Translations under genes and position numbers: made by a program
Shown here: in pieces, positions 17,481 through 27,386 of the stretch
How positions within the stretch are numbered: the first letter of the stretch is position 1
How the letters are laid out: each line of letters starts with the position of its first letter
From: Myxococcaceae bacterium
Lineage (GTDB): Bacteria > Myxococcota > Myxococcia > Myxococcales > Myxococcaceae
Length of the DNA: 36,983 nt
Assembly (NCBI GenBank): GCA_020247085.1
Contig: JADCJJ010000611.1
Location: 1-36,983, forward strand
Reading direction: 5' to 3'
The notes under the pieces: generated by a model
Told to the model about the DNA's origin: nothing
The model's input: the letters and a program-made list of their open reading frames with translations, nothing else
Databases searched by the model: none

Positions 17481-19058
17481 TCAGCCCGCCCGGCGCAGGT
17501 AGTCACCGAGCCATGGGAACACCGCGCCGACGGCCGCCGAGTTCCGCGCGAAGGTCGTCAGCCAGTCCCGGTTCTCGCTCAGCAGCAGGGCGTCGACCCA
17601 GCGCCGCATCGACGCGTGCGCCGTCTCGGGTGTGAGATCGAGCTCGAGCGCCGTGTCACGGCCCTTCAGCAGGTCGAAGAGGAGCACCCCCAGCCCGGCC
17701 TCGGGCTCGGTCGCGACGAGGCCCCGGGTGAGGTTCTCGGCGGCTTCGAGCTGCCCATCGCACAGCAGTGCCTGTGCCAGGCGCAGGGCCGCCGGGCCGG
17801 AAGGGGGCACGCCCGCGGCCTGCCGCAGCGCGGGAATCGCCCGCTCGACCCGGCCCAGCGTGAGGGCCGCGTCGCCGACGGCCCACGCCAGCTCCGCCGA
17901 GGCGCCGTACCGCCTCGTGTGCTCAGCCATCCACGCATCGAGCGCCTCGCTGCCCTCGAGCTGGAGCTTCAGCGCCGCGGCGGCCACCAGCGCCGCGGGA
18001 TCTCGCGGCTGCCCGAGAAGCGCCTCGTCGACGGGGCCCATCGCCTCTGAGAAGCGCCCCGACATCAACGCCAGGCGCGCCAGCCCCAGGCGCGGGCGCA
18101 CGGTGCTGAGCTGCCGGTCGCCCAGCGGCGCCTCGAGCGCCAGGCACCGCTCGTAGTCCTCTCTCGCGCGCGCCAGGTCGCCCAGCGCCTCATGGTGCTG
18201 GGCTCGCCGATGGAAGAGCGGCGCGCCTGGCACCACGAGCGGCGCCCACCGGTCGAGCAGCGACAGCCCCGCGGCTGAATCGGCCTTGAAGAGGCCCTCG
18301 GCCATCAGGGCGATCAGCTCCGCGCCCCACAGGGCCTCGGCGAGCGCCGTCGGCCCCACATGGTCGAGCGCGTCGGCAGCGCGGCGCGCGGCCCTTCGCC
18401 ACAGCGCGCTGTCCCTCCAGAAGCGCGCCAGCTCGAGCAGCTTGAGGTGCGCGTAGAAGTCGAGCCGATCGGCCTTCAGGGCGCGCTGGAGCAGGTCCAG
18501 ATCCCGGCGCTTCTTGTGTCTGGCGGCGGCGCGCTCGCGCACGTATCCCAGGTGCTCCACCGGCGAATCGACGCGAGCGAGCCGCCGCTGGGAGGTAGCC
18601 AGCACGGTCGTGAGGCTGCGCGAGACGTCTTCGTGGATCACGTGCTCGAAGTGCACGCCGTCGTCCCGCCGCCAGGCGCGAATGATCCACGACTCGCGGC
18701 GATGGCCGAAGGGGAGCGGATTCGACAGGCGTATCGTCAGCGCGCCGATCGCCGGGTCCTCGCACCGGGCACGGAACTCCTCGATGAAGGCCGGCGACAC
18801 CCGCTCGTCGGCGTCGAGCACCAGCACCCAGTCGCCCCGCGCGTGCGAGAGCGAGACGTTTCGGGCCTCGGCGAAGTCGCGCCGCCAGGCGTGCTTGAAG
18901 ACCCGGGCCCCGGCCGCCGCGAAGAGCTCGGGCGTGCCGTCGGTCGAGCCGGTGTCGACCACCACCAGCTCGTCCCACAGGCCCACGGCCGCCTCGAGGA
19001 AGCCCTGAACCATCTCGGCCTCGTCCTTCACGATCATCACCACGCTGACGCAGGTCAT
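17481..19058 (-). CDS. GT2 glycosyltransferase with TPR-like C-terminus (candidate flagellin glycosyltransferase)
   Basis: 525 residues, cytosolic. The first 230 form a family 2 GT-A domain: VSVVMIVKDEAEM at the start, DTGSTDGT (35-42), the DxD-type DADER (82-86) and a downstream HFEHVIHEDV segment. From about 235 to 500 there are helical TPR-like repeats (PRDPAALVAAAALKLQ, ALRLAQALLCDGQLEAAENL). GT2-TPR fusions near flagellin genes are known or proposed protein glycosyltransferases. This gene ends the flagellar run, joined by ATGA to the 89-residue gene that follows fliS, so flagellin or another filament protein is the obvious acceptor. That is inference. ATG 19058 gives the canonical N-terminus; the open frame above it is unrelated. 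Confidence 0.8.
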   Translation of the reverse strand: MTCVSVVMIVKDEAEMVQGFLEAAVGLWDELVVVDTGSTDGTPELFAAAGARVFKHAWRRDFAEARNVSLSHARGDWVLVLDADERVSPAFIEEFRARCEDPAIGALTIRLSNPLPFGHRRESWIIRAWRRDDGVHFEHVIHEDVSRSLTTVLATSQRRLARVDSPVEHLGYVRERAAARHKKRRDLDLLQRALKADRLDFYAHLKLLELARFWRDSALWRRAARRAADALDHVGPTALAEALWGAELIALMAEGLFKADSAAGLSLLDRWAPLVVPGAPLFHRRAQHHEALGDLARAREDYERCLALEAPLGDRQLSTVRPRLGLARLALMSGRFSEAMGPVDEALLGQPRDPAALVAAAALKLQLEGSEALDAWMAEHTRRYGASAELAWAVGDAALTLGRVERAIPALRQAAGVPPSGPAALRLAQALLCDGQLEAAENLTRGLVATEPEAGLGVLLFDLLKGRDTALELDLTPETAHASMRRWVDALLLSENRDWLTTFARNSAAVGAVFPWLGDYLRRAG

Positions 19059-19324
19059 CGCTCCCCTCCGTACGCCGCCGCCGCCCTCGCCGAGACCGCG
19101 CTCCCGCGCAGCTGCTCGGCCAGCTGCCCCAGCCGCTCGACCGCGAGCCCCTCGCACCGCTTGAACAGCGCCACCACGTGCGCGTCGGCCCCTGCGCCTC
19201 CGTCACAGCGCACATCGGCGCCGAACGCCTCGAGCTGCGCGAGGGCCAGCTCGTCATCACCGGCCTCGAGCGAGGCGCGAATCGCCTCGAGCCTCGAGCC
19301 AAGCTCGGCCGCGCGCGTCGTCAC
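19055..19324 (-). CDS. Small protein in the fliT position
   Basis: 89 residues, not recognised by sequence. It is predicted to be largely alpha-helical, rich in Ala/Glu/Leu, with one short loop (GGAGADAH). It starts with GTG overlapping the fliS stop (GTGA) and its stop overlaps the glycosyltransferase start (ATGA), so it is translationally coupled on both sides. In many bacteria the gene after fliS is fliT, a small helical chaperone for FliD, and size, fold and position all fit that role. It could instead be an accessory subunit of the glycosyltransferase. Confidence is good that it is a real gene, low on function. Confidence 0.6.
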   Translation of the reverse strand: MTTRAAELGSRLEAIRASLEAGDDELALAQLEAFGADVRCDGGAGADAHVVALFKRCEGLAVERLGQLAEQLRGSAVSARAAAAYGGER

Positions 19325-19695
19325 CGGGCGCCCGCCTGCGCCACCGCGGCCTGGAACCCCTCGACCACCGGGGCGAAGACCCGCTCTGCCTCCCGCACCG
19401 GGGCCGCCGTCCTCGAGGTCGACGCCACCAGGAGGCGCTGCGAGACGAAGAGGTAGACGTCGCCCAGCAGCGCCGTGAGCTCAGGGGCGGCGGCAGGGTT
19501 CAGGGTGCTCATCAGCTCGGCGACGATGTCGGTGGCCTTGCCCAGGAGCGGCAGCGCCGGCGCGACGTCGCCAGCCTCGAGCAGCGTGGCGGCCGAGCGC
19601 ATGTGCTTGAGCGCCGCCTCGAGGAGGAGCACCAGCAGGCGCTCAGTCGAGGCGGTTTCGTTCGTGGCGCGGGCGTAGGCACGTGACGCGTTCAT
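19321..19695 (-). CDS. fliS: Flagellin export chaperone FliS
   Basis: 124 residues, cytosolic helical-bundle chaperone that binds the flagellin C-terminus and keeps it unfolded for type III export. The N-terminal ARAYxxA-like segment (MNASRAYARATNETAS), the LLVLLLEAALKHMRSA helix and the LMSTLNP motif match the family. Length is normal. It overlaps fliD upstream (ATGA, 19692-19695) and the small gene downstream (GTGA). The order fliC-fliD-fliS is classic. The C-terminal 20 residues are more variable. Confidence 0.9.
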   Translation of the reverse strand: MNASRAYARATNETASTERLLVLLLEAALKHMRSAATLLEAGDVAPALPLLGKATDIVAELMSTLNPAAAPELTALLGDVYLFVSQRLLVASTSRTAAPVREAERVFAPVVEGFQAAVAQAGAR

Positions 19696-21050
19696 TCCTT
19701 GCTCCCCTGCTTCTCCCTCGAGGTGAGGAAGTCTCCGATGCTCTTGAACTGCCCGACGACCTTCTCCATCGCCGTGAACTGCTTCACCAACCGCTCACGG
19801 AATGAATCGACACGAAGCTGCAGAGACTCAATGCGGGAATCGAGCTGCCGGATCGACCGGTCGAGCCCGGACTTCCGCAGCTCGAGGATGCTGTTCGAGC
19901 CAAGGGTGAAGCGGTCGACCATCGTCGTGGTGGCTGCGGCGATGCCCGTCGTCGCAGTCTGGAAGAGGGCGTTGACCGCTGACGGGTCGGCGGCGATGGC
20001 GCGCTCGAGGCGGGTGGCGTCGATGCTCAGGCTGCCATCGGTCTGCGTCTTGATGCCGACGTCGGCCAGGGTTCGAACCGAGCTGCCGGGGTTCGCCTCA
20101 CCAACGACCAGCCCCTGGAGCGCTGACTGGAGCCCACGGAGGGACGGATCACCCCCGAGCGTGCGGCGCCGATCGGTCTGCTCTCCGATCGCCAGCGCGC
20201 CGCGCACCACCTTCATGGCGTCGTTGTAGGCGTCGGTGAAGCGCTTGAGGGCGGCCTGGGTGTCGGTCGTGCTGGTCGCCAGCACGAGGTCCTCGGGGGT
20301 CGTCGTCTTGCGGCTCAACGAGATCGTCGTGCCGGGCACGACGTCGGCGATGACGTTGCCCCGCCGTTCGAAGGACAACCCATCGACCGTGACGAGTGCG
20401 TTCACCGCGGGCTGCGTGATGGCGAGGCCGAGCGGCTGGCCCATCGAGCCGCTCGAGATCTCGGCGATCTGCAGCGCGCTCGACGCCGGCTGTCCGACGA
20501 CGAAGCCGGTGTCGCGGCGGGTGACGCTGAGGAACGACTGGCCGTTGGTCTCGAGCACCGAGGCGCTCACCGCCGCGCCGGAGCGGTTGATGCGGTCGGC
20601 GGCCTGGGTGAGCGTCATGCCGTCGTCGAGCGTGACGCTGGTGGTGGCGCCGTCGATGGTGAGCCCGAGCGTTCCACCCGTCACCTGCGCCGTCGCTCCG
20701 CCGGCGAACGCCTGGCTCCTGCCGCGCGCCGCCTGCGCGAGCTCGTCGACCTGAAGCGAGTACCGGCCAGACGCGGCGGACGACGACGGGCTCGCGCTGA
20801 ACCCCGAGTTGGTGCTGCTGGCCCGAACCGCCAGGGCCCCGTTGGCGCCGAGCGCGCTGGCCGCCGTCCGGAGCGCCGTGAGCTTCGACATCACGTCACC
20901 GATCGACGAGACCTGCGCCTTGAACGCGTCCTGCTGCTTGCGGGTGAGGTCGATCGTCCGGCTCTCGATCTTGACGAGATCGTTGACGATGCTGGTGGTG
21001 TCGAGCCCCGAGGCGAGGCCCGAGGCGCGGAAGGTGGGGGTGGTCGGCAT
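19692..21050 (-). CDS. fliD: Flagellar filament cap protein FliD
   Basis: 452 residues, the hook-associated protein 2 that caps the growing filament and folds incoming flagellin. The N-terminal FRASGLASGLDTTSIVNDLVKIES is the family signature. The central beta-rich region includes SGRYSLQVDELAQAA. The C-terminal coiled-coil region (about 385-445) has LDRSIRQLDSRIESLQLRVDSFRERLVKQFTAMEKVVGQ. Secreted by the flagellar type III apparatus, so no Sec signal. ATG 21050 has a Shine-Dalgarno (AGGAG) 5 bases upstream. It is separated from fliC by 216 bases holding two hairpins, so full expression may need read-through or its own promoter. Confidence 0.95.
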   Translation of the reverse strand: MPTTPTFRASGLASGLDTTSIVNDLVKIESRTIDLTRKQQDAFKAQVSSIGDVMSKLTALRTAASALGANGALAVRASSTNSGFSASPSSSAASGRYSLQVDELAQAARGRSQAFAGGATAQVTGGTLGLTIDGATTSVTLDDGMTLTQAADRINRSGAAVSASVLETNGQSFLSVTRRDTGFVVGQPASSALQIAEISSGSMGQPLGLAITQPAVNALVTVDGLSFERRGNVIADVVPGTTISLSRKTTTPEDLVLATSTTDTQAALKRFTDAYNDAMKVVRGALAIGEQTDRRRTLGGDPSLRGLQSALQGLVVGEANPGSSVRTLADVGIKTQTDGSLSIDATRLERAIAADPSAVNALFQTATTGIAAATTTMVDRFTLGSNSILELRKSGLDRSIRQLDSRIESLQLRVDSFRERLVKQFTAMEKVVGQFKSIGDFLTSREKQGSKE

Positions 21051-22091: not shown

Positions 22092-22148
22092 TGCCTCTCC
22101 TGAGTGGTGTTTGGTGAGGCGGTCGGTTGATGTCCGCCTTCAGTGAGT

Positions 22149-22176
22149 GGTTCGACACACGCCGTGGGCCCCTTAA
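22149..22176 (-). promoter_or_regulatory. Sigma-28-like promoter of fliC
   Basis: On the minus strand TTAAG (22176-22172), a 15-base spacer and GTCGAACC (22156-22149) follow the layout TAAAG-N15-GCCGATAA of FliA promoters. The match is four of five in the -35 and about four of eight in the -10. The transcript would carry a leader of roughly 50 bases with the Shine-Dalgarno. The presence of flgM upstream supports sigma-28 control of flagellin. The rest of the 22092-22318 gap holds nothing I recognise. Confidence 0.4.
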
Positions 22177-22318
22177 ATCAACGCCCGAAGCGCACCGACG
22201 CGTCAGAGAAACGTCGCGCAGCGCACGACGCAGACGTCACGCGCGCGCGTGAGGTGGGGTGCCGTGTGACGAGTGAGGCGCGCGGCTGCAGGGCCGAGGC
22301 GGTCGCCAAGGTGGCGCG

Positions 22319-24280
22319 TCACGCCGCTTCGAGCCGCCGGGCCAGGGAGCCGAGGTGGCACCAGAGGCGACGCAGCGCGCGAGAGCGCAGCGACAGCACT
22401 CCAAGCGGAGAGCCGGAGGTCTCTTGACCGTCCTCGAGGTGCACCGCGACGACGCGGATCCTGCCGCGAATTCCGGGCGGCCAGTGCGAGAAGATGGTCT
22501 CGGCGAGGGCCCGCCAGCCGAGGGCCTGCCGCGCGCCGAAACGCTCCTCGCCGAAGTCCACCACCAGCCCGGCCGGCGTCGCGGTGACGATCAGCGCGAC
22601 GGGCTCGACCCGCTCCTCTGGCATGCGCCGCGTGAACGACGACAGCTCGGGGCCCACGCTGAGCGAAAACGAGGCGCCGACCTGTTCGAGCAGCAGCCGC
22701 GTGTCGGCGACCCACCACTCGAGGTTCGGCCGCGGAAACGCCTCGGCGAAGAGGAGCCCGGTGTCGTCCACGAAGAGGGCGAGGGCCTCGCCGTCGAACC
22801 CCTCGTGCACCGTCGCCTGCACCGTCGGCCTGCCAGCGATGCTTCGCGGTGGGCGCAGCGCCGCGAACCACTCGGCGCGCTCCGGCAGCAGCGAGAGCCG
22901 GCGCGGGGCGCTCAGCGCGGCCAGCAGCGGGCGCTCACGCATCCGCTCTCCGACCGTCAGCATCACCCGCTTGTCGCGTTGGACCGCGAAGGTGGCGCCA
23001 GCCGTCATCTCGGTGACCGCCAGTTGCGCCAGCCGCGAGACGAGCTGCGGGTCGGCCCCCGGCCTGCCGACGAGCTCGAAACTCTGCCCGCTGGAGCGGA
23101 GCGCGACCGCCAACCGAACCAGCCTGTCGGCCTTGAGCCGCCGCGCCCTCAGGCGCCCGGAGCGGGTGGTGCGCAGCACCAGGTGCTGCAGGAAGCCCGG
23201 CTCGACCACGAGCAGAGAGCGGCCCGTGCGCTGCTGCAGCACCTTCTTCGCGCGCCTCCACTCGGGCTGGGCCGGCGCAAGCGCCGGTGACTCGGACACG
23301 GCCTTCGCGCGGAGTCCATCGAGCGTGGCCGCCTCGATCAACGTCGCCCCGTCGACGTCGAGGCACCACCGGCCGCCTCGCTGCAGCTCACAGGCGACGT
23401 GCCGGTCGAGCAGCGCCTCGAGCCGGGGGCGGAGCGCCGGGACGATCGAGGCGCCGAGCGCCCAGCGGCGAACGTCAGCCGAGAGCAGGGCGCGCTGCGC
23501 ACGGTCGCTCCGTTTCCAGCGGCGCAGCGCGTGCTGCCGCACGGCGCGGCTGGCCTGCTGCAGCTCGAGCAACGTCGGCTCGCGCTCGAGGCGTAGCGCG
23601 CGGTCGAGCAACTCGGGGTCGGCGGCGGCTGCTGCCGCGAACCGCTCCGGAGCGGCCAGCGCGATGCCCGGCAGGAGCCGTCCGGTCGGGCCCTGGTCGG
23701 AGACCGCCAGCACGAGCGTTCGCGACCAGGCCGTCGGCGCGGCACGAACCAGTGAAGGCACGTCGGGCGGCGCTTCGTCGTCGAGGTCGACGACGTCGCC
23801 CGCGACCAGGCCGGCGAAGAAGGCCTCGCGGGCGGGCAGGGCGCCGGCCTCGTGCACGACGATGGTCAGGCGCGGCGCCTGGCGCTCAAGGAGCATGCCG
23901 ATCATCTGCACCCGCTCGTCGAGGCGGCGGTGCTCTTCCTGAGAGCGCTCGCCTCCGGCGCGCACGATGATCGCCCACCGCTCGCCCTCCGCCTCGAGCC
24001 AGGCCGACTCGACGAGCGGGCGGGTGCTGCAGAAGGCGAGGGGCGGCGGGAAGTCGAGCAGCTCGCAGGCACGGCCCCACCGCCGCCGCATGGGCATGCG
24101 CTCCAGACCAGGCGGCTCCTTGTCGAAGCCCGGGCGGCGGAACCTGGCTGCGAGGAGCACGGGCAGCACGCGAATGACGGCGCGCTCCGTGGGCTGGAGC
24201 GCGCGCAGCAGGTGTGCGGTCCGCCGCCGGAAGAGCGGCGCCAGCGGGTGGTGCGCGCGACCGGGGCGAAGGCGGCTCAC
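22319..24280 (-). CDS. Large protein of unknown function inside the flagellar operon
   Basis: 653 residues, not recognised. It is a soluble, basic, Arg/Leu/Ala-rich protein with no signal peptide or transmembrane helix. A basic N-terminus (about 1-70) is followed by an alpha/beta segment (about 85-165, with WAIIVRAGGE and LTIVVHEAG strands), a long helical region (about 205-330) and a beta-rich C-terminal half (about 400-600). The order helix-rich start, IIV strand, regulatory half and a VDDTGLLFAEAFP element loosely recalls class I adenylate cyclases, but the GSxxSD-D-type catalytic signature is absent, so this is only a hint. It starts with GTG 11 bases after flgL, with GAGG upstream, so it is surely in the flgKL unit. 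A role in filament assembly or its control is inferred from position. Confidence 0.55.
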   Translation of the reverse strand: MSRLRPGRAHHPLAPLFRRRTAHLLRALQPTERAVIRVLPVLLAARFRRPGFDKEPPGLERMPMRRRWGRACELLDFPPPLAFCSTRPLVESAWLEAEGERWAIIVRAGGERSQEEHRRLDERVQMIGMLLERQAPRLTIVVHEAGALPAREAFFAGLVAGDVVDLDDEAPPDVPSLVRAAPTAWSRTLVLAVSDQGPTGRLLPGIALAAPERFAAAAAADPELLDRALRLEREPTLLELQQASRAVRQHALRRWKRSDRAQRALLSADVRRWALGASIVPALRPRLEALLDRHVACELQRGGRWCLDVDGATLIEAATLDGLRAKAVSESPALAPAQPEWRRAKKVLQQRTGRSLLVVEPGFLQHLVLRTTRSGRLRARRLKADRLVRLAVALRSSGQSFELVGRPGADPQLVSRLAQLAVTEMTAGATFAVQRDKRVMLTVGERMRERPLLAALSAPRRLSLLPERAEWFAALRPPRSIAGRPTVQATVHEGFDGEALALFVDDTGLLFAEAFPRPNLEWWVADTRLLLEQVGASFSLSVGPELSSFTRRMPEERVEPVALIVTATPAGLVVDFGEERFGARQALGWRALAETIFSHWPPGIRGRIRVVAVHLEDGQETSGSPLGVLSLRSRALRRLWCHLGSLARRLEAA

Positions 24281-25187: not shown

Positions 25188-26582
25188 TCACCGCAGCCCG
25201 AGCAACGTCTCGAGCATCTGGTCGGCGGTCTTGATCACCCGCGCGACCGCCTCGTAGGCGCGCTGAGACCGCTGCATGTTGACCAGCTCCTCATCGATCG
25301 ACACGCCCGAGGCCGACTGCCGCATCGTCTCGAGGTTCAGCTTGACCGCGCCGTCTCCCTCGGCCATTGCCATCGCGCGCGACGTGGCCGCGCCGTAGCT
25401 CGCAGTGAGGCTCGCCAGCTCGTCGCCGGGGCTCCTTCCCGACGAGAGCGCCTGCCCCTCGGTGTCGATGAGCCGCTGGGCGATGGTGGCATCGCCCGGC
25501 GCGCCAGCGACGCCGGCGGCGGGGAAGAGCGCCCCGTTGGCCGCGAGCGCCGCGTCGACCGAGAGGGTACGCGCTGCGCCAGCGACCGTCGCCTGCACGC
25601 TGAACACCTTTTGCCCAGTCGTCCCGGTGAGCGTGAAACCGGTCTGGGCGACGGCGTTCACCGCCCCGGCGAGATCGGAGGCGAGGGTATCGACGCGCTG
25701 CTGCGCCGTGCGCATCGCCCCGTCGCGCGCGTCGAGCATGCCGCCGAGCGTGCCGCCCGGCACCTCGCCCAGTTGCTTCGCCGCGATGGACGACGGCGAC
25801 CTGAGCCACAGGGCGAGGTTGCCGTTGTTCGCCGGGTCTGGCTGGGCGCTGAACGTCGCGGCCTTGTCGCCCTGCACGAGCGACGTGCCTCCGGGCAGCA
25901 CGAGGTTCGCGTCACCGACGTCGTTCTCGACCACCCGCGCGCCCGTGAGCGTCGCGACGCGATCGACGAGCCGGGCGCGCGCGTCGAGCAGATCGTTCGG
26001 CCTGCCCCCTGCGCCCGTTGCCTGGCTGATCTGCGCGTTGAGCTTCGCGACCTGAGCCAACGCCTCGTTGAGTTCGGGCAACGTGCCTTCGAGCCTCGCG
26101 TCGACGGCGCCACGAGCAGCGTCGAGGGCGCTGGCCGTCTGGTTGAACGAGGTCGCCAGGCGCTTCGCCGCGCTCACGGCCGCCTCTCGCACGCTCGCGC
26201 TCCCGGGGTTCTGCGCCAGCGCCCGGAGCTGCGAGTAGAAAGCCGCGAGCGAGTCGGAGAGCCCAGCGTCGGGGTTGAGGGCGCTGACGCCCTGGAGCAG
26301 CGTCGCCTGCGTCGACGAGCGCGCCTCGTTGCCCAGCGCCACCGGGACCTGTTGCTCGACGAAGCGGTCGCGCGACTGGGTGATGGCCTGCAGCATCACC
26401 CCCCGCCCGAGGAACGAGTTGCCGAGCTGGTCTGCGGGCACGACCGCCGCAAGCTCGGCGCGCTGGCGCGCGTACCCGGGGGTGTTGGCGTTCGAGAGGT
26501 TCTGGGCGACCGTCGAGCTGTACGCCTGCTGTGCTTGCAGGCTCTGCGCGCCTTGCCGGAGCACCGAGAGCAGGCCAGCCAT
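25188..26582 (-). CDS. flgK: Flagellar hook-associated protein 1
   Basis: 464 residues. FlgK is the first hook-filament junction protein. The N-terminal flagellar rod-type domain has LQAQQAYSSTVAQNLSNANTPGYARQRAEL, the ANxNTPGY motif of axial proteins. The C-terminal domain has SGVSIDEELVNMQRSQRAYEAVARVIKTADQMLETLLGL, also canonical. The middle is shorter than in enteric FlgK (about 550). The start codon shares one base with the flgN stop (TGATG), so translation is coupled to its chaperone gene. Confidence 0.95.
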   Translation of the reverse strand: MAGLLSVLRQGAQSLQAQQAYSSTVAQNLSNANTPGYARQRAELAAVVPADQLGNSFLGRGVMLQAITQSRDRFVEQQVPVALGNEARSSTQATLLQGVSALNPDAGLSDSLAAFYSQLRALAQNPGSASVREAAVSAAKRLATSFNQTASALDAARGAVDARLEGTLPELNEALAQVAKLNAQISQATGAGGRPNDLLDARARLVDRVATLTGARVVENDVGDANLVLPGGTSLVQGDKAATFSAQPDPANNGNLALWLRSPSSIAAKQLGEVPGGTLGGMLDARDGAMRTAQQRVDTLASDLAGAVNAVAQTGFTLTGTTGQKVFSVQATVAGAARTLSVDAALAANGALFPAAGVAGAPGDATIAQRLIDTEGQALSSGRSPGDELASLTASYGAATSRAMAMAEGDGAVKLNLETMRQSASGVSIDEELVNMQRSQRAYEAVARVIKTADQMLETLLGLR

Positions 26583-27052
26583 CAGACACGCTCCGATCGG
26601 GTCGAGGCCTCAGGCACCAACGTCACACCGCGCCGCCCGTACGCCGCGGGCCTCGGCGCGAGGTGCGTCACGTAGGCGCGCACGAAGGTCAGCGCCCGCT
26701 CGGCGAGCGCCTGGTTGAAGTCGTCGAGCTCCTGGAGCGCCGCCGTGAGCGCCCGCACTTCGGCGAACACCGACGCCAGCTGGGCTCCTTCGAACGGTGC
26801 CCACTCGGTGAGCTGCTGGAGCGTCACGTCCTTCAGGCCGCGGGAGGCCGCGACGTCGCCCAGCGCACGCGCCAGCACGTCGGACAGGTGGGCCGAGCGC
26901 TGGTTGAACTCCTCGCGAGCTGCTGCCTGCGCGAGGAGCGCGTCGATCTGCATGCCCTTGAGCACGGCGCGCGCCTCGCGTGAGCGCTTCACCTCGGCGG
27001 CGAGCGCGTCGCGGAGCTGGAGCGACAGCGAGATGGCGGCGGAGAGGCTCAT
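26582..27052 (-). CDS. flgN: Flagellar export chaperone FlgN
   Basis: 156 residues, helical, cytosolic. FlgN escorts FlgK and FlgL to the export gate. Sequence identity in this family is low. The call rests on the long amphipathic helices (about 5-135), the size and the position between flgM and flgK with a one-base overlap with flgK. The segment around ALLAQAAAREEFNQRSAHL resembles the FlgN core helix. No strong Shine-Dalgarno is seen. It lies 28 bases after flgM. Confidence 0.75.
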   Translation of the reverse strand: MSLSAAISLSLQLRDALAAEVKRSREARAVLKGMQIDALLAQAAAREEFNQRSAHLSDVLARALGDVAASRGLKDVTLQQLTEWAPFEGAQLASVFAEVRALTAALQELDDFNQALAERALTFVRAYVTHLAPRPAAYGRRGVTLVPEASTRSERV

Positions 27053-27080: not shown

Positions 27081-27386
27081 TCACGAGAGCATCGCCCTGA
27101 GCTTCGCCGCGATTTCGGCCTCCGAGACGAGCTGGTTCGCGATCTGCTGAGGCGAGGGGTAGTACTGCCCGCTCTTGACTGCGCTGATGATCTCTTGAAC
27201 CCGCTGGGCCCGCGTCGAGGCCGCCGCGCTCTCGGCCGCGCGGACGACGCTCGTGTCGCTCGCGCTCGGCACCGAGATCCGCTCCCTGGGCTCCGTCGCC
27301 GACGCCTGCGCCTTGTCGTTGGTGCCCCCGGAGCGCTGCGGCCCCGCTGCGACGAGCTGCCCCAGTGCCGTGTCGTTCACTTTCAT
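27081..27386 (-). CDS. flgM: Anti-sigma-28 factor FlgM
   Basis: 101 residues. FlgM binds sigma-28 (FliA) and blocks late genes until the hook is finished, when FlgM is exported. The N-terminal half is polar and probably disordered. The C-terminal RAQRVQEIISAVKSGQYYPSPQQIANQLVSE is the sigma-binding signature. Its start overlaps the flgJ/M23 stop (ATGA) and has a Shine-Dalgarno (CAGGAG). Its presence predicts that a fliA gene exists elsewhere and that fliC is sigma-28 dependent. Confidence 0.9.
   Translation of the reverse strand: MKVNDTALGQLVAAGPQRSGGTNDKAQASATEPRERISVPSASDTSVVRAAESAAASTRAQRVQEIISAVKSGQYYPSPQQIANQLVSEAEIAAKLRAMLS

Follow-up and report, generated by a model that had tools for sequence, protein, structure and literature searches.

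A predicted pseudoenzyme of the class I adenylate cyclase line encoded in the flgL-fliC interval of a late flagellar operon in a Myxococcaceae bacterium

What is the large protein whose gene separates flgL from fliC within the late flagellar operon of a Myxococcaceae bacterium, from which enzyme line did it come, and what might it do there? The window, the whole stretch of DNA analysed here (36,983 nucleotides, forward strand of contig JADCJJ010000611.1, assembly GCA_020247085.1), contains this gene, designated X653, and its family is named X here. The features concerned are listed below in transcriptional order, with E values of the Pfam matches.

27081..27386, minus strand: flgM (anti-sigma-28), Pfam FlgM 6.1e-7
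26582..27052, minus strand: flgN (export chaperone), Pfam FlgN 2e-10
25188..26582, minus strand: flgK, Pfam FlgK_D1 3.2e-53
25191-24292, minus strand: flgL, Pfam Flagellin_N 9.8e-19 and orthologues; 11 nt upstream of X653
22319..24280, minus strand: X653 (family X), predicted pseudoenzyme resembling class I adenylate cyclases, 653 aa
23777..24253, minus strand: N-terminal nucleotidyltransferase-like (Adenyl_cycl_N-like) domain of X653, residues ~10-168, from hhalign and the AlphaFold2 model; approximate
23963..24001, minus strand: site of the lost catalytic loop of X653, residues 94-106 (WLEAEGERWAIIV), from the alignment of 21 X and 17 cyclases
22319..23200, minus strand: C-terminal half of X653, approximately residues 361-653, collinear with flagellar-locus cyclases
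22091-21267, minus strand: fliC (flagellin), Pfam Flagellin_N 1e-31; 227 nt downstream of X653
19692..21050, minus strand: fliD (filament cap), Pfam FliD_C 1.1e-45
19321..19695, minus strand: fliS (flagellin chaperone), Pfam FliS 9.9e-21

X653 starts with a GTG codon at 24280 (minus strand), 11 nt after the end of flgL, and ends 227 nt before the start of fliC; its G+C by codon position (0.79, 0.54 and 0.91) has the pattern usual for coding frames in a window of 72% GC. The original prediction, made from the DNA alone, had described an open reading frame of 653 residues at 22319-24280, 11 bases after flgL; this was matched exactly, and the strand, not stated then, is minus. The location inside a late flagellar operon was likewise confirmed, with flgH, flgI, flgJ, flgM, flgN, flgK and flgL upstream and fliC, fliD and fliS downstream. 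The protein had also been called soluble and basic and devoid of any recognisable motif, and this description holds: X653 has a pI of 11.2, 92 arginines and no transmembrane-like stretch (max KD19 1.5), and Pfam, NCBIfam and PDB sequence searches with X653 gave no match. A single-sequence scan of the genome contigs with query P0001 gave no match either, and a profile match of X to acRAF (E 0.04) was set aside as chance.

The gap between X653 and fliC (22092-22318, 227 nt) is much longer than that between flgL and X653, and it also exceeds the roughly 38-100 nt seen in most relatives. It contains neither a sigma-28 nor a sigma-54 consensus site; over the whole window, matches to the sigma-54 consensus were not above chance and a sigma-28 site was not found. 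A family 2 glycosyltransferase gene with TPR repeats follows fliS (17481-19157, minus strand), is operon-adjacent in many relatives and is a candidate for flagellin glycosylation.

Of 195 Myxococcota genomes surveyed, 27 carry family X (7 from the same genus, 10 more from the same family, 9 more from the order, and G171 from another family of the phylum), as proteins of 640-760 aa. The original prediction had proposed a survey of flgL synteny, and the linkage is present in every relative: within the reach of the contigs, X adjoins both flgL and fliC in each of the 27. The single exception to flagellar linkage is a second X paralogue in G171 (L119 7215-10985, minus strand; 1256 aa), which lies outside the flagellar locus and combines a zinc ribbon, a Ser/Thr kinase and a C-terminal X domain. 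Orthologues of X653 keep their position at 23-62% identity. Two length classes occur, of about 650 aa (the window clade) and about 750 aa; a PPxDPLNRG motif is present in the longer forms, and DPLNRG has been lost in the short subclade, which includes X653. For the closest pair, dN/dS (Nei-Gojobori) is 0.11 for X, 0.10 for flgK and 0.07 for flgL, and the value for X shows purifying selection; with position also kept, X653 is therefore a conserved gene and not a chance reading frame. A 146-bp fragment of an X gene, 94.5% identical and with an in-frame stop, was seen in an intergenic region elsewhere in one genome (G006, L083 4754-4898).

Descent of X from class I (CyaA-type) adenylate cyclases is well supported by profile similarity, by the predicted fold as far as the superfamily, and by a gene slot that X has in common with true class I cyclases. 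Single sequences remain below the usual thresholds: the best Pfam match of the family is that of one member to Adenyl_cycl_N (PF12633) at E 0.035, X lies below the gathering scores of PF12633 and PF01295, X653 itself has no Pfam family, and PF12633 or PF01295 was not matched anywhere in its own genome. In profile-profile comparison (hhalign), 17 X aligned with four class I cyclases at P 9.2e-6, and 21 X with 17 class I cyclases at P 4.8e-8 over the N-terminal domain; among the 26 controls, the alignment with columns reversed gave P 0.65 and none of the 25 column shuffles fell below 0.28. The C-terminal half of X is collinear with that of cyclases from flagellar loci (P 3.7e-4 over 284 columns), and in this alignment DPLNRG of the long X forms falls on WDLLDYG of the cyclases. 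When all frames of the Myxococcota genomes were searched with the X profile, a 28th genome (G147) was matched only at a flagellar-locus cyclase (E 4.6e-4) and, being a cyclase genome, was left out of the 27; this same cyclase (L093) was the best of 17 cyclases against the profile (23 bits). In the reverse search with the cyclase profile, X-family reading frames took ranks 1-13 of 1,298, with low individual scores. No confident match to a family unrelated to flagella appeared, and the original suspicion, that the layout is of the class I adenylate cyclase kind but lacks the catalytic residues, is well supported by profiles, predicted fold and gene position. Like the class I cyclases (E. coli CyaA; PF12633 and PF01295), X has a helical N-terminal extension, a core predicted to be nucleotidyltransferase-like and a long C-terminal part; unlike CyaA it is shorter, stays under the Pfam cut-offs, is without the GS...SDxDxW loop in 21 of 21 members and is located in a flagellar operon.

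The fold was predicted with AlphaFold2 from the X alignment only (pLDDT 85.7 over the full length and 88.3 for residues 1-172), so that the model of the N-terminal domain was built without any cyclase sequence. Nucleotidyltransferases account for 10 of the 12 top PDB matches of this domain (AadA, AAD(9), HI0073, an archaeal nucleotidyltransferase, an MNT antitoxin and ANT-3,9), at Z 5.0-6.2, a middling range that common arrangements reach too; AadA is the best (Z 6.2, 102 residues, 2.8 A), and the top Foldseek match is MNT. Middling Z scores of about 6 were counted because the model is free of cyclase sequence and the highest-ranked matches all point to a single superfamily. Class I cyclases are absent from the structure matches, an absence that proves nothing either way, and the fold comparison therefore reaches the superfamily only. 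The aminoglycoside and MNT nucleotidyltransferases (AadA, AAD(9), HI0073, MntA) are thus the best structural matches at fold level only, and differ from X in that X is without the catalytic residues. Matches of the full-length model (pantothenate kinases, HIV RT, TolR) were dropped, with Foldseek E >0.008 and low TM-scores, as were the VIA rows of the full-length comparison, which covered mostly residues 337-423.

That the structure matches are to other nucleotidyltransferases, and that pairwise identity between X and the cyclases is low, would also fit an origin of X independent of the class I cyclases, with only the general nucleotidyltransferase fold in common and a flagellar position by coincidence. 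This reading is very unlikely: within the Adenyl_cycl_N match, the alignment also spans the helical extension that precedes the nucleotidyltransferase core, collinearity extends to the C-terminal half, and the gene slot is identical to that of intact cyclases.

These intact class I cyclases were found in the flgL-fliC slot of three genomes of another Myxococcota family (f11; MAG contigs QMME01000012, JAAZNF010000012 and JALVPF010000223), with the gene order flgL-csrA-fliW-cyclase-fliC, and match PF12633 (E 5e-47 to 4e-43) and PF01295.

L092 7278-9437: f11 flagellar-locus cyclase, in two pieces of 719 and 156 aa
L093 8378-11161: f11 flagellar-locus cyclase
L094 8059-10842: f11 flagellar-locus cyclase

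The f11 cyclases resemble X in the slot before fliC and in collinear N- and C-terminal regions; they keep the full catalytic loop together with csrA and fliW, whereas X genomes are without csrA and fliW. At 13 class I cyclase loci of other phyla (Desulfovibrio, Spirochaetes, Nitrospinota, others) no flagellar neighbours were found, and linkage of cyclases to flagellar genes is therefore not general. In two other flagellated Myxococcota, response-regulator/histidine-kinase proteins fill the flgL-fliC interval (L148 6706-8637; L151 7028-8470), in place of X or csrA-fliW; interval proteins of this type in G159 and G187 were rejected as unrelated to X, as were genes of glycosyltransferase and sulfotransferase type that precede fliC in G193.

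Has X kept the chemistry of its presumed ancestors? The class I cyclases carry GSxxxxxQxxxSDxDxW at the loop site, which, by what is known of the nucleotidyltransferase superfamily, is their catalytic metal/nucleotide site. The loop is kept in 17 of 17 cyclases and missing from all 21 aligned X, in which the site is a short beta-hairpin and the glycine, serine and first aspartate are gone. In some long X forms the second Asp position is still acidic (GLDVHV, GFDAWV), as would be expected of descent with loss; in X653 neither Asp position is acidic. Because the loop is lost throughout, X is regarded as a putative pseudoenzyme of the cyclase line and is not called an adenylate cyclase; judged from its sequence, it is a conserved pseudoenzyme in which cAMP synthesis is predicted to have been lost.

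Loss of the loop, and in the short subclade with X653 also of DPLNRG, might be taken as decay of a former flagellar cyclase into a pseudogene; 17 aligned full-length members have uninterrupted frames, the gene is kept in 27 genomes and its closest-pair dN/dS is like that of flgK, which together make decay extremely improbable. A second possibility is that X has remained a sensor of a nucleotide (cAMP, ATP or c-di-GMP), through which it sets late flagellar gene expression or motor output, and that it has nothing to do with flagellin homeostasis. Its descent from a nucleotide-using enzyme and the acidic second-Asp residue retained by several long forms (LDV, FDAWV) would suit such a sensor, but the deletion of the loop in 21 of 21 members and the want of an acidic residue at both Asp positions of X653 speak against it, and we consider it unlikely.

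The preferred reading is that X is a catalytically dead class I cyclase descendant of the late flagellar operon that now acts as a binding regulator of flagellin production or export, which we hold to be probable. The sequences show a late flagellar operon protein, conserved under purifying selection, that has lost the catalytic loop; it would work by binding and not by catalysis, as a cytoplasmic protein-protein and possibly nucleotide-sensing regulator, and would keep flagellin production or export in step with completion of the hook-filament junction. The same job would be that of CsrA-FliW in bacteria that retain those genes. In the systems described so far, FliW and CsrA couple flagellin translation to export (PMC6070490, PMC6529632).

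In the survey of 195 genomes, 9 have FliW, and these 9 also have CsrA, for which a marginal match under the cut-off turned up in one more. FliW and CsrA are absent from all 27 X genomes, and none of the 9 FliW/CsrA genomes has X; a regulatory role for X is supported by this, as is a regulatory module by the fusion of the X domain to a Ser/Thr kinase in G171. Of the 48 genomes that have at least one of FliD, X and FliW, none has X and FliW together (Fisher P 1.8e-4, uncorrected for phylogeny), an exclusivity that involves few clades and is confounded by phylogeny. CsrA-FliW resembles X in that the pair lies in the flgL-fliC interval, in f11 and f20 genomes; CsrA and FliW differ in being much smaller and of different families, and no similarity to X was seen. 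The f11 loci hold FliW, CsrA and a cyclase together, and an active cyclase alone therefore did not replace FliW/CsrA there. X and FliW are both missing from twelve Myxococcota genomes that have FliD, three of them (G068, G084, G086) with flgL and fliC adjacent; the proposed job is therefore not universally needed, and flagella can be built without either. Swimming has been observed in an A. dehalogenans strain (PMC2330069).

X might instead be an accessory of assembly or export, such as an escort that binds FlgL or FliC, with the cyclase scaffold as no more than a binding platform. It would agree with the position between flgL and fliC, with an operon that contains the chaperone genes flgN and fliS, and with the soluble and very basic character of X653; against it, flgN and fliS are already in the operon, and X, at 650-760 aa, is far above the size of the known flagellar export chaperones. 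We regard this role as improbable, about on a par with nucleotide sensing.

Under the preferred reading as a binding regulator, the part in flagellin production or export is one that we infer, and takeover by X from CsrA-FliW serves as a working model. Control of the hook-to-filament switch, as first suggested for X653, is plausible and fits both the position and the absence of CsrA/FliW; flagellin supply would be indicated equally. The full scenario, in which the late flagellar operon of Myxococcota recruited a class I cyclase that, after losing catalysis, turned into a regulator of flagellin homeostasis of a new kind and replaced the CsrA-FliW checkpoint, is put forward tentatively, with rather less than even confidence.

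We know of no description of pseudoenzymes in the class I (CyaA) line or of class I cyclases inside a flagellar operon, and a literature search outside which most subscription papers lay returned none. Intact and dead cyclases in one slot of related lineages form a natural series, in which it may be asked whether cAMP once controlled filament assembly. For the X-bearing bacteria, in which CsrA and FliW are absent, X would offer a single testable candidate for the balancing of flagellin production with export.
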